The notes under the pieces were generated by a model. It was given only the letters and a program-made list of their open reading frames with translations. It did not search any database and was not told the origin of the DNA. Positions 32,492-49,000 of a stretch of DNA of 64,000 nt are shown piece after piece. The stretch lies in NCBI RefSeq assembly GCF_005871085.1, contig NZ_VAUP01000035.1, positions 248,001-312,000 on the forward strand, read 5' to 3'. The position numbers and the translations under genes were made by a program. How positions within the stretch are numbered: position 1 is the first letter of the stretch; each line of letters begins with the position of its first letter. This DNA comes from Xanthobacter autotrophicus (GTDB lineage: Bacteria > Pseudomonadota > Alphaproteobacteria > Rhizobiales > Xanthobacteraceae).

Positions 32492-33052
32492 TCATACCGC
32501 CTGAACCTCGCTGACCTCCGGCACGAAGTGCTTGAGAAGGTTCTCGATACCGTTCTTCAGCGTAGCCGTGGACGACGGGCAACCGGAGCACGAGCCCTTC
32601 ATGTTCAGGAACACGATACCATCCTTGAAGCCGCGGAAGGTGATGTCGCCGCCGTCATTGGCCACCGCCGGGCGCACCCGCGTGTCCAGAAGTTCCTTGA
32701 TGGTGGCGACGATCTCGGCGTCCTTCGCCTCGTAGAACTCGTCAGCATCGGCGGCTTCGGGTTTCACACCGTCGGACAGCACCGGAGCGCCGGACATGAA
32801 GTGTTCCATGATGGCACCGAGGATGGCCGGCTTGATCTGCGGCCACTCCGCCTCCGCCTTGGTGACGGTCACGAAATCCGATCCCAGGAACACAGCCGCC
32901 ACACCGCGCACATCGAACAGGCGCTGGGCGAGGGGAGAGAGGTCCGCATCGTCGTGGGAGCGCAGGTCGAGAGTGCCTTCCCCCAGCACCGAACGGCCGG
33001 GCAGGAACTTGAGGGTTGCCGGGTTCGGCGTGGTTTCGGTCTGAATGAACAT
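32492..33052 (-). CDS. nfu: NfuA-like iron-sulfur cluster carrier (NifU C-terminal domain protein)
   Basis: This 186-residue protein has an N-terminal Nfu_N domain (MFIQTETTPNPATLKFLPGR) and a C-terminal NifU-type domain. The cluster-binding CxxC is in KGSCSGCPSSTATLKNGI near 153-170. It carries 4Fe-4S clusters to target enzymes. Several clients are in this window (MiaB, QueG, PqqE). Start ATG 33052 is well placed. Confidence 0.95.
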   Translation of the reverse strand: MFIQTETTPNPATLKFLPGRSVLGEGTLDLRSHDDADLSPLAQRLFDVRGVAAVFLGSDFVTVTKAEAEWPQIKPAILGAIMEHFMSGAPVLSDGVKPEAADADEFYEAKDAEIVATIKELLDTRVRPAVANDGGDITFRGFKDGIVFLNMKGSCSGCPSSTATLKNGIENLLKHFVPEVSEVQAV

Positions 33053-35590: not shown

Positions 35591-36637
35591 TCAGCGCGCC
35601 CGGCGCACCGCTTCCACCAGCTTTTCCACATGGTCGAGCGGGGTTTCGGGGCGGATGCCGTGGCCGAGATTGAAGATGTGCCGCACGCCGGAAAAATCAT
35701 CGCGGATGCGCGCCACTTCATCCTCCAGCGCCGCGCCGCCGGCGATGAGGCGCAGCGGATCCAGATTGCCCTGCAGCGCCACGCGGCCGGATAAACGCCG
35801 CCGGGCCGCCTGCCGATCCGCCGACCAATCGAGGCCGATGGCGTTGATACCGGTATCGGCCAACCGCTCCAGCGCCTCCAGCGTCGCCCCCTTGGGGAAG
35901 GCAATGACCCGCACATGGGGGTGCAGCGCCTTCAATCCCGCGACGATACGGCGCAGTGGTTCAGCACACCAGCGCTCGAACGACGAGGGATCGAGCACAC
36001 CGGCCCAGGTATCGAAGATCTGCACCACATCGGCGCCGGCCGCCACCTGCCCCGCCAGATGGACGATGGAAGCCTCCACGAGCCGGTCGATGAGGCTCTG
36101 GAACAGGGTTTCGTCGCGCAGGGCCAGCATGCGGGCGGGCGCCTGATCGTCAGTGCCGTGGCCCGCCACCATGTAGGTGGCCACCGTCCACGGCGCGCCG
36201 CAGAAGCCGATCAGCGCTACTTCGGCCGGAAGGGTGGCACGCACGGAGGCGATGGCCTCGTAGACCGGCTCCACCTTGTCGGGATCCAGCCGGTCCTTGA
36301 GGGCGGCTACGCCCTCGCTGTCGGTCACCGGCGTCAGCCGCGGACCCTCGCCGGCCTCGAAGGTGAGGCCGACGCCCAGGGCGTGGGGCACCACCAGGAT
36401 GTCCGAAAAGATGATGGCCGCGTCAAAGCCATAGCGGCGGATGGGCTGGAGCGTCACCTCGGCGGCGAGCTTCGGCGTGTAGCACAAAGTGAGGAAGTCG
36501 CCCGCCTCAGCCCGCACCGCGCGATATTCCGGAAGATAGCGCCCCGCCTGCCGCATCATCCAGAGCGGCGGTGGGTCGAAAGGAGTGCCGTCGAGCACCC
36601 GCAGGAATGGCGATCGTGTCTCGAGAGCGCGGTTCAT
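35591..36637 (-). CDS. hemE: Uroporphyrinogen decarboxylase
   Basis: HemE decarboxylates uroporphyrinogen III to coproporphyrinogen III. The 348-residue protein has the signature PPLWMMRQAGRYLPEYR near 23-39, FSDILVVPHALG near 79 and GFCGAPWTVATYMVAGHG near 143-160. Its start faces the predicted replication origin. hemE next to the origin is the classical Caulobacter and Rickettsia arrangement. Confidence 0.97.
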   Translation of the reverse strand: MNRALETRSPFLRVLDGTPFDPPPLWMMRQAGRYLPEYRAVRAEAGDFLTLCYTPKLAAEVTLQPIRRYGFDAAIIFSDILVVPHALGVGLTFEAGEGPRLTPVTDSEGVAALKDRLDPDKVEPVYEAIASVRATLPAEVALIGFCGAPWTVATYMVAGHGTDDQAPARMLALRDETLFQSLIDRLVEASIVHLAGQVAAGADVVQIFDTWAGVLDPSSFERWCAEPLRRIVAGLKALHPHVRVIAFPKGATLEALERLADTGINAIGLDWSADRQAARRRLSGRVALQGNLDPLRLIAGGAALEDEVARIRDDFSGVRHIFNLGHGIRPETPLDHVEKLVEAVRRAR

Positions 36638-36691
36638 CCCGTCCCTTCAATCTAATAGAATCTTATTTAAAGAGAGAGAGTCTTTGGAGTC

Positions 36692-36706
36692 TTAACGGTT
36701 GATTAA
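36692..36706. promoter_or_regulatory. CtrA binding box 1 in oriC
   Basis: TTAACGGTTGATTAA is a perfect TTAA-N7-TTAA match. It sits one base after a GAGTC (CcrM) site and next to the AT-rich stretch. CtrA bound here would block initiation, as known in Caulobacter. Confidence 0.85.
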
Positions 36707-36795
36707 CGATGTAATCGGCCGACGACAACCGATCCACAGGCAGGCCGGTTCATGAAGGCGCACTTGCCGCAGGTGCGAAGCCGGCGAAAGGCCGG

Positions 36796-36810
36796 TTAAC
36801 AAAGGATTAA
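36796..36810. promoter_or_regulatory. CtrA binding box 2 in oriC
   Basis: TTAACAAAGGATTAA is a second perfect TTAA-N7-TTAA match, 104 bp from the first. Candidate DnaA sites lie on both sides of it. Confidence 0.85.
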
Positions 36811-36899
36811 CGCGGGGGTCCCGGACGGCTGTCCACATGGACGCACAGGGTGGGGGTGGATTCCATCCCGGACGGGTTGGGTGTGGATGGATTTCAGGG

Positions 36900-36908
36900 T
36901 TATCCAGA
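36900..36908 (+). promoter_or_regulatory. DnaA-box-like site
   Basis: TTATCCAGA matches the DnaA consensus TTATCCACA at eight of nine positions. Confidence 0.6.
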
Positions 36909-36965
36909 GCCCGCACTTGCACCCCGGCACCGGGCGTGCCTTTTTCAACAGTGTTCCACAGGAGC

Positions 36966-36974
36966 GGTGGATAA
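36966..36974 (-). promoter_or_regulatory. DnaA-box-like site at the PpsR-family gene start
   Basis: Read on the - strand this is TTATCCACC, eight of nine to the consensus. It ends two bases before the GTG start of the following gene, so DnaA bound here could also affect that gene. Confidence 0.6.
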
Positions 36975-36976
36975 TT

Positions 36977-37828
36977 GTGACTCTGAAAACGCCCGGCGAG
37001 AGTTTCTTCCATCTCCACCTCGTTTCCGATGCCACGGGCGAGACCCTCATCAATGTGGGACGGGCGGCCTGCGCGCAGTATGCGAACGTGCTGCCCATCG
37101 AGCATGTCTATCCGCTCATCCGCTCCATGAAGCAGCTGGAGCGGGTGCTCAGCGAGGTGGAGAACAACCCGGGCATCGTGCTCTACACGCTGGTGGACAA
37201 GGAGATCCGCGAGCGGCTGAAGGAGCGCTGCCGTGAACTTGGCGTGCCCTACATGTCGGTGCTGGCGCCGGTGGTGCAGCTGTTCCAGTCCTACCTCGGC
37301 GGCAGCCCGACCCCGCGCGTGGGCGGGCAGCACTCGCTGGATGCCAATTATTTCAAGCGCATCGACGCGCTGAACTACACCGTCATGCACGACGATGGGC
37401 ACATGACGGACGACCTGGAAAGCGCCGACGTAGTGCTGCTCGGCGTGTCGCGCACCTCCAAGACGCCCACCTCCATCTATCTCGCCAATCGCGGCATCAA
37501 GACCGCCAACATCCCGCTGGTGCCCAGCGTGCCGCTGCCGCCGGGGGTGGAGAAGCTGAAGAAGCCGCTTGTGGTCGGCCTGGTGGCGAGCCCGGAGCGC
37601 ATTGTCGAAATCCGCCAGAACCGGCTTCTGGGGCTCAATGCATCGGATCTGGGCGCGTCCTACGTGGACCGGGAGGCGGTGAACGAGGAGATCATCCTGT
37701 CGCGGCGCCTGTGCGCCCGCAACGGCTGGCCCCTCATCGACGTCACCCGCCGCTCGGTGGAAGAGACTGCCGCCACCATCTACGCGCTCTACAGCGAGCG
37801 CCGACGCCGGGCCATCGCCGAAACCTGA
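36977..37828 (+). CDS. Pyruvate phosphate dikinase / PEP synthase regulatory protein (PpsR/PDRP family, DUF299)
   Basis: This family is a bifunctional Ser/Thr kinase and pyrophosphorylase that switches PPDK or PEP synthase off and on with ADP. The 283-residue protein has [20 protein letters not shown] at the N-terminus, the P-loop-like [18 protein letters not shown] near 155-172 and a C-terminal [14 protein letters not shown]. The start is GTG 36977; no ATG fits. It is the counterpart of the RP001 gene that marks the other side of oriC in Caulobacter and Rickettsia. Confidence 0.94.
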
Positions 37829-37860: not shown

Positions 37861-37989
37861 CCATGAGACCGGGCCATGAGATTGGCTCACGGCCTGACCA
37901 TGAGACGAGAGCACACCTTGCACCCTAGCCGGCTTTGAGGGAAACCCACATGGACCGGCCCCGGATGGAGCGCGGGAGCGAAGGGAGAT

Positions 37990-44435: not shown

Positions 44436-44451
44436 TGTTTCACGTGAAACA
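44436..44451. promoter_or_regulatory. parS: parS centromere site 1 (perfect)
   Basis: TGTTTCACGTGAAACA is the exact 16-bp palindromic ParB-binding consensus. It sits in the mnmE-mnmG gap, about 3.6 kb before parB and about 7.5 kb from the predicted origin. Confidence 0.95.
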
Positions 44452-46458: not shown

Positions 46459-47208
46459 ATGAAGGGCGGCAAGCGGGAGCGCGGGAGCGCGGGGCGCGAG
46501 GTCATCGCTGCGGTGGTTTCACGTGAAACACTTGGCCGGCTCACCATCATCGCCGATCTGCTGGTGAAGTGGCAGAAGACCATCAATCTCGTCGCCCCCG
46601 CCACCCTGCCCGACCTGTGGGCGCGGCACGTGGGTGATTCGCTCCAGCTCGTTCACCATGTGCCGCAGACCCCCTTGCGCTGGGTGGATCTGGGGTCCGG
46701 CGGCGGTTTTCCCGGCCTGGTGGTGGCGGCGGTGCTGGCGGAGCGGGATGGTGCCCACATGCATCTTGTGGAAAGCGACACCCGCAAGGCCGCCTTCCTG
46801 CGGGAGGCGGCGCGGCTGGCGCAACTGCCTGTCACCGTTCACGCCGCGCGCATCGAGCAGGTGGCGCAAGTGCTGGCGCCCGGGACGGATGTGGTCTCCG
46901 CCCGCGCCCTGGCGCCTTTGCCGAAGCTGCTGGATCTGGCCGCGCCGTTCCTCGCCGCAGGGGCCATTGGCCTATTTCCCAAGGGTCGCGATGCGGAACG
47001 CGAATTGACCGACGCGGCAAGAAGCTGGACACTCGACTGCGACCTGCGCCCCAGTACGAGCGATCCCGAAGGCCGGATCCTCCTGGTAAGGGGCGCCAGG
47101 CGCGGGACCGACACCATCGAACCCCAGTCCGGCGCGCGCTCCCCCGGGGAGCCGGATGCCGGTGGCGGGCCGCCCGAATGCGACGCGTCGAGGATGAAGG
47201 CGCCATGA
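46459..47208 (+). CDS. rsmG: 16S rRNA (guanine527-N7)-methyltransferase RsmG (GidB)
   Basis: RsmG methylates G527 of 16S rRNA. The 249-residue protein has [20 protein letters not shown] near the start, the SAM motif [17 protein letters not shown] near 74-90 and [15 protein letters not shown] near 150. The codons for VSRET form a parS site, so protein and DNA signal overlap. The last 35 residues are a variable Gly/Pro tail. Its stop overlaps parA as ATGA. Confidence 0.95.
46515..46530. promoter_or_regulatory. parS: parS centromere site 2 (15/16), inside rsmG
   Basis: GGTTTCACGTGAAACA differs from the parS consensus only at the first base. It encodes Val-Ser-Arg-Glu-Thr of RsmG. It lies about 1.6 kb before parB and 2.1 kb from site 1. 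Confidence 0.9.
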
Positions 47209-48053
47209 TCGATCAAGAGACCCCTTCCCCCGCCGGTGGCACCCCCGCCGCGCCGCGTGTGCTTGCCCTTGCCAACCAGAAGGGCGGGGTGGGCAAGACC
47301 ACGACGGCCATCAATCTGGGCACGGCGCTCGCCGCCATCGGTGAGACCGTGCTGGTGGTGGACCTCGACCCGCAGGGCAATGCCTCGACCGGCCTTGGCA
47401 TCGAGCGGCGCGCGCGCAACCTCTCCACCTATGACGTGCTGACCGGCGAGGCCAGCATGCGCGAGACGGTGATGGAAACCGGCGTGCCGCAGCTTTATGT
47501 GGCGCCCTCCACCCTCGACCTGTCGGGCCTGGAACTGGAGATCGCGGCCGAGCGCGACCGCGCCTTCCGCCTGCGCAGCGCGCTCAAGGCGCTGGCGGCG
47601 GACAGCGCCGCGCCCCGCTTCACCTATGTGCTGGTGGACTGCCCGCCCTCGCTCTCGCTACTGACGGTGAATGCCATGGCGGCGGCCGATGCCATCGTGG
47701 TGCCGCTGCAGTGCGAGTTTTTCGCGCTGGAGGGCCTGTCGCAGCTGCTGAAGACGGTGGAGCAGGTGCGGGTCAGCCTCAATCCGGCGCTCACCATCCA
47801 CGGCATCGTGCTGACCATGTATGACGGCCGCAACAACCTGTCCGAGCAGGTGGTGCAGGACGTGCGGCAATTCATGGGCGACAAGGTCTATGAGACCGTG
47901 ATCCCGCGCAACGTGCGGGTGTCGGAGGCGCCGTCCTATGGCAAGCCGGTGCTGCTCTACGATCTCAAGTGTGTGGGATCACAGGCTTATCTGCGCCTCG
48001 CCTCGGAGGTGATCCAGCGCGAGCGCGCGGCGCGCGCGGATGCTGCGGCCTGA
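47205..48053 (+). CDS. parA: Chromosome-partitioning ATPase ParA (Soj)
   Basis: ParA forms the nucleoid-bound gradient that moves ParB-parS complexes. The 282-residue protein has the deviant Walker [20 protein letters not shown] near 25-43, [15 protein letters not shown] near 53-67 and [17 protein letters not shown] near 140. No N-terminal DNA-binding HTH is present, as expected for chromosomal ParA. ATG 47205 overlaps the rsmG stop. Confidence 0.97.
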
Positions 48054-48079
48054 TAGCGGACAAGGGACGGGACACGGTC

Positions 48080-49000
48080 ATGGCGGATGAACAGCGCTCG
48101 CGGCTCGGCCGCGGTCTTGCGGCGCTCATCGGGGAAATGGGGGAGCCTCAAGCGGCCCCGGCGGCGCGATCGGGGGCAGGGCGCGGCGGGCCGCGCCGGG
48201 TGCCCATCGAGCATGTGCGGCCCAATCCGCGCAATCCGCGCCGCACCTTCCTGGAGGAGGGACTGGAAGACCTCACCGCCTCCATCCGTGAGAAGGGTAT
48301 CATCCAGCCCATCGTCGTGCGCCAGCTGAACGGCAGCGACAGTTTCGAGATCGTCGCCGGCGAGCGGCGCTGGCGCGCGGCTCAGCGCGCGGCGCTGCAC
48401 GAGGTGCCGGTGGTGGTGCTGGAACTGTCCGATCGGGAGGCGCTGGAAGTCGCCATCATCGAGAATGTGCAGCGCGCCGACCTCAACCCAGTGGAAGAGG
48501 CCCAGGGCTACGAATCCCTCATGGGGGAATTCGACTATAATCAGAATGATTTGGCTCGTATCATCGGCAAGAGCCGTAGCCATATCGCCAACACCCTGCG
48601 GCTGCTGAAGCTGCCGGCGGGGGTGAAGACCTATCTCGCCGACGGGCGCCTGAGCGCCGGCCATGCCCGCGCGCTGCTGGCCTGCGCCGATCCCGAGCGC
48701 ATGGCGAAAGATGTGGTGGAGAAGGGGCTAACCGTTCGCGACGTGGAGGCCTTGTCCAAGGCTCGCACCGCGCTCACCACGGCGCCGGCGAAGGGCGAGG
48801 CGGGCCAGACGGGCAAGGGCAGCAAGGGCGGGGCACTGGAGCACAAGAGCGCAGACAGCCGGGCGCTGGAAAAGCGTCTCTCCGACGCGCTCGGTCTCAG
48901 CGTGGGGATCGAGGGCAAGGGCGAGGCGGGCGAGCTGCGCATCCGCTACAAGAGCCTTGATCAACTCGACGAAGTCTGTCGACGCCTCGGGCTCGACTGA
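48080..49000 (+). CDS. parB: Chromosome-partitioning protein ParB (Spo0J)
   Basis: ParB is the CTPase clamp that loads at parS and spreads. The 306-residue protein has the N-terminal ParA-contact peptide (SRLGRGLAALIG), the ParB/Srx CTP-binding domain with IIQPIVVRQ and AGERRWRAAQRA, and the ENVQRADLNPVEEAQGY segment. The HTH NDLARIIGKSRSHIANTLRL and a C-terminal dimer domain follow. I chose ATG 48080; upstream frame residues are parA shadow. It is followed by a strong two-way terminator. Confidence 0.97.
   Translation: MADEQRSRLGRGLAALIGEMGEPQAAPAARSGAGRGGPRRVPIEHVRPNPRNPRRTFLEEGLEDLTASIREKGIIQPIVVRQLNGSDSFEIVAGERRWRAAQRAALHEVPVVVLELSDREALEVAIIENVQRADLNPVEEAQGYESLMGEFDYNQNDLARIIGKSRSHIANTLRLLKLPAGVKTYLADGRLSAGHARALLACADPERMAKDVVEKGLTVRDVEALSKARTALTTAPAKGEAGQTGKGSKGGALEHKSADSRALEKRLSDALGLSVGIEGKGEAGELRIRYKSLDQLDEVCRRLGLD

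Follow-up and report, generated by a model that had tools for sequence, protein, structure and literature searches.

The 339-base gap between hemE and a divergently transcribed regulator gene is well supported as the chromosomal origin of a Xanthobacter, by a turn in nucleotide skew, a nearby parS/parAB locus, conserved gene order and islands of conserved motifs. Xanthobacter is methylotrophic and belongs to the order Hyphomicrobiales (Rhizobiales). The source assembly comprises 5,013,287 bases in 42 contigs; the window, meaning the whole stretch of 64,000 nucleotides that was analysed, is positions 248001-312000 of contig C32. The gap and its flanking genes lie at the following window positions.

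36638..36976, no strand: predicted chromosomal origin, the gap of 339 bases from hemE to the regulator gene (skew, synteny and motif conservation)
35591..36637, minus strand: hemE, left flank (TIGR01464, 397.5 bits against a cut-off of 302.95)
36977..37828, plus strand: PPDK/PEP-synthase regulator family gene (COG1806/DUF299 type), right flank (NF003742)

The NF003742 model scored 343.7 bits (cut-off 225) on the longer open reading frame 36881-37828, and we placed the start of the regulator gene at the GTG at 36977, the same choice as had been made in an earlier reading based on the letters alone (the sequence-only reading). The regulator protein is 97% identical to its counterparts in the nearest named relatives, X. 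oligotrophicus 29k and X. autotrophicus AM5. That reading had described the right flank as a PpsR-family gene; membership of the PPDK/PEP-synthase regulator family stands, but the label is loose because the narrower PpsR model scored 149 against a cut-off of 350. GC content is 56.0% in the gap versus 68.1% in the window, and an Rfam scan of the whole window gave no match. A terminator-like hairpin with a T-run is present within the gap at 36926-36940, reading rightward; one was found where shuffles predicted 0.6.

Skew was computed on C32:85001-381522, which is 296,522 of 5.01 million bases and a single contig. On these 296.5 kb the cumulative GC skew reached its minimum at window position 32914, 3.7 kb from the gap, and the keto skew at 37962, 1.0 kb from the gap, so the turn that the sequence-only reading had proposed as a check was found near the gap on this part of one contig. 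Partitioning elements lie close by.

44436..44451, no strand: parS-like site, exact pattern match, 7.5 kb from the gap
46515..46530, no strand: parS-like site with one mismatch, 9.5 kb from the gap
47178..48053, plus strand: parA-like gene (AAA_31, 190 bits)
47969..49000, plus strand: parB-like gene (ParB_N, HTH_ParB), given as the listed open reading frame, whose true start may be further in

These two are the only parS-like sites with at most one mismatch in the whole genome, and they cluster with mnmG, rsmG, parA and parB. A gene with a DnaA C-terminal domain (a 576-aa frame, 111.7 bits) lies 142 kb away on contig C32. The divergent order of hemE, gap and regulator gene was found at 136 of 146 loci: all 16 of the Xanthobacter clade (the window plus 15 loci) and 120 of 130 other loci of the order. 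Those 130 were taken from 169 matching relatives, 39 being left out, in a sample built by automatic grouping of relatives; among the ten loci lacking this order, one (L021) is a contig end with 363 bp of sequence. Gap edges in the relatives may be off by tens of bases, being estimates from alignments with the proteins of the window and not annotated starts. The alignment of the clade shows motif islands that are kept while the remaining gap sequence drifts. The earlier call of an origin is thus borne out by the skew turn, by parS and parAB nearby, by gene order and by the islands.

Caulobacter W-boxes have the sequence TCCCCA and G-boxes the sequence TGATCCACA, as given in the accessible text of a review (PMC4285127). 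The islands in the gap include an AT-rich stretch, which the sequence-only reading had also described, and several candidate DnaA sites; fractions out of 16 refer to members of the clade.

36646..36685, no strand: AT-rich stretch, 75% AT over 40 bp
36730..36738, plus strand: DnaA site CGATCCACA, one mismatch to the Caulobacter G-box, TCCACA core in 16/16
36829..36837, plus strand: DnaA-like site CTGTCCACA, TCCACA core in 11/16, TCCCCA in 4 others
36882..36890, minus strand: DnaA-like site CCATCCACA, TCCACA core in 16/16
36900..36908, plus strand: 8/9 DnaA box TTATCCAGA, identical letters in 3/16, TCCCCA in 5 others
36952..36960, plus strand: DnaA-like site TGTTCCACA, one mismatch to the G-box, TCCACA core in 14/16
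36966..36974, minus strand: 8/9 DnaA box TTATCCACC, in a region poorly aligned in relatives

Both 8/9 boxes, at 36900 and 36966, had been reported before, along with four weaker ones; the former were recovered, but the 7/9 matches to TTATCCACA number five, at 36730, 36829, 36942 and 36952 on the plus strand and at 36882 on the minus strand. Eight 8/9 boxes occur in the window, including the two in the gap, compared with a shuffled mean of 2.5 (s.d. 1.5), and four TCCACA cores arose in 0 of 5000 dinucleotide shuffles of the gap. There are two one-mismatch matches to the G-box in the gap and no exact one. The exact W-box core TCCCCA is likewise absent from the gap; some relatives have TCCCCA at aligned places. 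Judged by conservation, the best-kept DnaA sites are the G-box-like TCCACA sites rather than the 8/9 box at 36900. The latter was considered as the key DnaA site and rejected, its letters being shared by only 3/16.

The gap also contains two candidate sites for the cell-cycle regulator CtrA.

36692..36706, no strand: CtrA box 1, TTAA-N7-TTAA, perfect in 14/16 clade members
36796..36810, no strand: CtrA box 2, TTAA-N7-TTAA, perfect in 12/16 clade members

Two perfect boxes had been claimed, and both were found as described. The 5.01 Mb genome holds 14 perfect boxes; the window has two, 104 bp apart and both in the gap. When the gap was dinucleotide-shuffled 5000 times, two boxes never arose and a single box arose 15 times. 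Because TTAA-N7-TTAA is itself unenriched genome-wide (14 sites versus 15 for a reversed control pattern), the unusual feature is the pairing of boxes in the gap. We used WATCAANNNNTTR as the form of the IHF consensus; a one-mismatch match overlies both CtrA boxes, which is partly implied by the CtrA letters themselves.

GANTC, the CcrM motif, occurs at five positions in or at the edge of the gap, all as previously listed.

36658..36662, no strand: GANTC 1, conserved in 15/16, each of the four bases occurring at N
36678..36682, no strand: GANTC 2, conserved in 16/16
36687..36691, no strand: GANTC 3, abutting CtrA box 1, conserved in 9/16
36859..36863, no strand: GANTC 4, conserved at the aligned place in 6/16
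36979..36983, no strand: GANTC 5, just inside the regulator gene start

The third site does abut CtrA box 1, as the sequence-only reading had pointed out, but this site is conserved in just 9/16, and the best-kept sites in the clade are those at 36658 and 36678. The count alone is only mildly unusual, since 153 of 5000 dinucleotide shuffles of the gap reach at least four. The surrounding DNA is poor in the motif: the window has 56 sites versus 249 (s.d. 16) in shuffles, and the 296.5 kb of contig have 256 versus 874 expected by composition, a 3.4-fold depletion, with the gap as the densest 350-bp GANTC cluster on this stretch. An outlier that belongs to the family but not to the clade (L076) is without both perfect CtrA boxes and GANTC 1-3 and retains the TCCACA core at 36882.

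Genes for both regulators, whose presence the sequence-only reading had named as a point to check, were found in the genome. The ctrA gene scored 420 bits against a cut-off of 350, its protein resembling a CtrA receiver chain of known structure (4qpj), and the CcrM protein matches the solved CcrM chain 6pbd at 505 bits. A CtrA box with one mismatch was found 67 bp upstream of ccrM; within 400 bp upstream of ctrA there was none, one mismatch allowed. At locus L050, six GANTC lie within 164 bp upstream of ctrA, and its 400-bp upstream region likewise gave no CtrA box with at most one mismatch. Across the order, ctrA was detected in 198/199 genomes at E <= 1e-85 (196/199 above the model's cut-off), and the CcrM-associated RAMA domain in 199/199 sampled genomes. 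The sequence-only reading had also suggested that control of initiation by CtrA and CcrM is kept here. From the conservation of the boxes, CtrA control of the Xanthobacter origin is plausible; the CcrM part is the weakest step.

The 136 origins with the conserved gene order form 37 groups (36 families, the window's own divided in two), and some member carries a perfect CtrA box in 21 of these. At least one box is present in 65/136 origins, at least two in 18 and none in 71. Outside the Xanthobacter clade, 57 boxes were counted in 49/120 loci and 20 families; 34 of the 57, from 13 families, are 120-245 bp away from hemE and six are within 75 bp of it. When spacings of 2 to 14 were compared for TTAA-Nk-TTAA in these 120 origins, N7 gave 57 sites and each other spacing 0 to 10, with 8 for the control AATT-N7-AATT and 1 for TATA-N7-TATA. 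Loci with at least 45% GC (n = 97) had 43 N7 sites versus at most 5 elsewhere. Base composition was therefore rejected as the cause of the boxes, N7 being the sole strongly enriched spacing in these loci as well; for the AT-rich families f3 and f28 chance boxes are expected, and related rows cannot be counted as independent. From other groups within the class 69 loci were examined, and the 10 in which hemE or the regulator gave no match were set aside; a perfect CtrA box is present in 9 of the remaining 59 origins, and N7 again gives the peak, with 10 sites versus at most 2.

GANTC on the hemE side is more widespread than the CtrA boxes (105/136 versus 65/136 origins). At least one site lies within 70 bp of hemE in those 105 origins, compared with 27/136 within 70 bp of the regulator gene. 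At least half of the members have hemE-side GANTC in 27/37 groups, which is not so in 10. Compared with the other pentamers of its form (24 in all) on the hemE side of the 120 loci, GANTC ranked top with 144 sites (89/120 loci with one or more), and the runner-up had 52. The other groups of the class have GANTC on the hemE side in 25/59 origins and on the opposite side in 10. When presence was mapped on an 86-row HemE tree, the CtrA boxes required no fewer than 19 changes and hemE-side GANTC 11, counts made without a shuffle comparison on a quick gene tree (not a species tree) in which 31/83 inner branches are weak. Since ctrA is present in 198/199 genomes and the CcrM-associated domain in 199/199, the sites vary while the regulators stay; with 71/136 origins lacking a box, perfect CtrA boxes are dispensable in the order. 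Loss of CtrA as the cause of missing boxes, and loss of CcrM as the cause of missing hemE-side GANTC, were rejected on the same gene counts.

Seven relatives in the window's family (L042, L067, L068, L110, L116, L119 and L129) gave no hemE within 1.5 kb. All seven retain the GANTC cluster, 284-343 bp from the regulator gene, with four sites in three of them, three in another three and two in L129; a perfect CtrA box is absent from the 1.2 kb scanned in each. A HemJ-like frame, identified by eye, adjoins the origin in the five that were inspected (L042, L067, L110, L119 and L129). The GANTC cluster can thus outlive hemE, whether as part of the origin or as a promoter of the leftward unit. A Rho-like frame sits beside the regulator gene in the relative L132 (G135, a 1.5 Mb genome), where neither hemE nor a HemJ-like frame was seen.

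An automatic prediction of this Xanthobacter origin presumably exists, and an origin of the hemE/COG1806 type is not itself new. As far as the accessible portions of the literature go, such an origin with CtrA boxes is known in Caulobacter and predicted in Rickettsiales (PMC1914354). Caulobacter crescentus Cori likewise lies between hemE and a COG1806 gene and has CtrA TTAA-N7-TTAA boxes, weak DnaA sites near the G-box, an AT-rich region and GANTC reported in the origin (PMC1914354, PMC4285127, PMC3973325). The available text of a review counts five CtrA sites and two G-boxes in Cori (PMC4468827), whereas the Xanthobacter gap has two CtrA boxes, DnaA sites one mismatch off the G-box, no exact TCCCCA and IHF-like matches only with one mismatch. 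The likeness to Cori asserted in the sequence-only reading holds for the flanks and gene order.

Sinorhizobium meliloti belongs to the same order as Xanthobacter, and Hyphomonas neptunium to another. The S. meliloti chromosomal origin differs from the present one in being without a CtrA motif and without CtrA binding, as described in the accessible part of one report (PMC4433202), and CtrA of Brucella is cited as not binding its origin in excerpts of a comparative study that surveyed upstream regions of genes and gives RcdA as absent in Xanthobacter (PMC2877005). H. neptunium, a close counterpart, shows a CtrA ChIP-seq peak at a site adjoining its origin, and the main text as available held no mention of GANTC that we could find (PMC7200025). 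Predicted origins of Rickettsia and Wolbachia share the hemE flank and in silico CtrA and DnaA boxes, but these belong to other orders, are AT-rich and have a different second flank in Wolbachia, Ehrlichia and Anaplasma (PMC1914354). The portion of the review at hand states that CtrA sites have not been seen in alphaproteobacterial origins beyond Caulobacter, possibly excepting Rickettsia prowazekii (PMC4468827), and it regards direct control of the origin by CtrA as mostly confined to Caulobacter; perfectly spaced boxes occur here in origins of 20 families outside the Xanthobacter clade. Such sites are thus commoner in the origins of this order than stated. The searched literature, which excluded many subscription papers, yielded none on CtrA or GANTC sites at a Xanthobacter origin or on an order-wide GANTC cluster, and the distribution of both across the order seems under-recognised. 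Because the boxes change while ctrA stays, gain, loss or replacement of direct CtrA control is now testable.

We infer that the gap is probably a DnaA-dependent, Cori-like origin with CtrA repression, in which GANTC acts on a leftward promoter. DnaA would assemble on several weak G-box-like TCCACA sites and then open the AT-rich stretch adjoining hemE. Phosphorylated CtrA on box 1, on the hemE side beside the AT-rich stretch, and on box 2, between DnaA sites, would hold back DnaA, leftward transcription or both until CtrA is cleared; at Cori, CtrA is described as excluding DnaA and possibly also acting via transcription, in the review text available (PMC4468827). The hemE-side GANTC cluster would most likely act on the leftward promoter rather than on DnaA loading, and this promoter would turn hemimethylated once the origin fires. 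A scan of 36500-37050 for sigma-70-like promoters found none at hemE.

The likelihoods of the alternatives overlap with that of this account and do not sum to one. It is possible, if on balance doubtful, that the origin is real and its CtrA boxes and GANTC sites serve chiefly in the promoter of a leftward hemE-hemJ unit, CtrA and CcrM acting on transcription and not on initiation. CtrA box 1 and GANTC 1-3 are no more than 70 bp from the start of hemE, GANTC favours the hemE side throughout the order (105/136 versus 27/136), and CcrM is reportedly not needed for initiation control in Caulobacter (PMC3973325, in part). However, box 2 is ~158 bp from the hemE start, 34/57 boxes in other clades lie at 120-245 bp, and the seven relatives without hemE keep two to four GANTC, though the cluster could still serve hemJ because a HemJ-like frame adjoins it in the five inspected. 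A role for hemE-side GANTC methylation in licensing or sequestering the origin itself, by analogy with GATC methylation in enterobacteria, would fit the retention of GANTC 1 in 15/16 with all four bases at N, as under selection on GANTC itself, and the cluster's rank as the strongest hemE-side pentamer signal in 120 origins. Extra chromosome copies reported on CcrM over-expression in Caulobacter (accessible text of PMC3973325 and PMC6090056) count in its favour, yet we consider it improbable: 10/37 groups are mostly without hemE-side GANTC despite the CcrM-associated domain in 199/199 genomes, delta-ccrM Caulobacter is described as having a wild-type-like DNA content profile (PMC3973325), and Agrobacterium CcrM depletion is described as changing ori2 and not noticeably ori1, which is nearly unchanged by depletion or excess (PMC11514494, both sources as available). 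For these last two reasons, tuning of the leftward promoter is the likelier role of the GANTC cluster.

It is barely credible that the origin lies elsewhere and that the motifs arose by chance in an unremarkable intergenic region between divergent genes; the skew does cover one contig only, but skew, parS, synteny, conservation and shuffles all oppose this reading. More tentatively, and rather unlikely in our estimation, the order-wide hemE-side GANTC cluster might be a fork-passage switch, hemimethylated first at initiation and altering leftward transcription from the origin or re-initiation, with the CtrA boxes as a second layer that is repeatedly gained and lost. The cluster offers a concrete mutable target for the role of GANTC at alphaproteobacterial origins.

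Besides the 576-aa frame, two small open reading frames in the genome have the DnaA C-terminal domain as their sole Pfam match: one of 200 aa (G000:C1:520212-520415; L175:1417-2019, minus strand; 91.5 bits) and one of 126 aa (G000:C32:68905-69099; L176:1396-1776, plus strand; 51 bits). From their domain content, both might bind DnaA boxes without the ATPase part.
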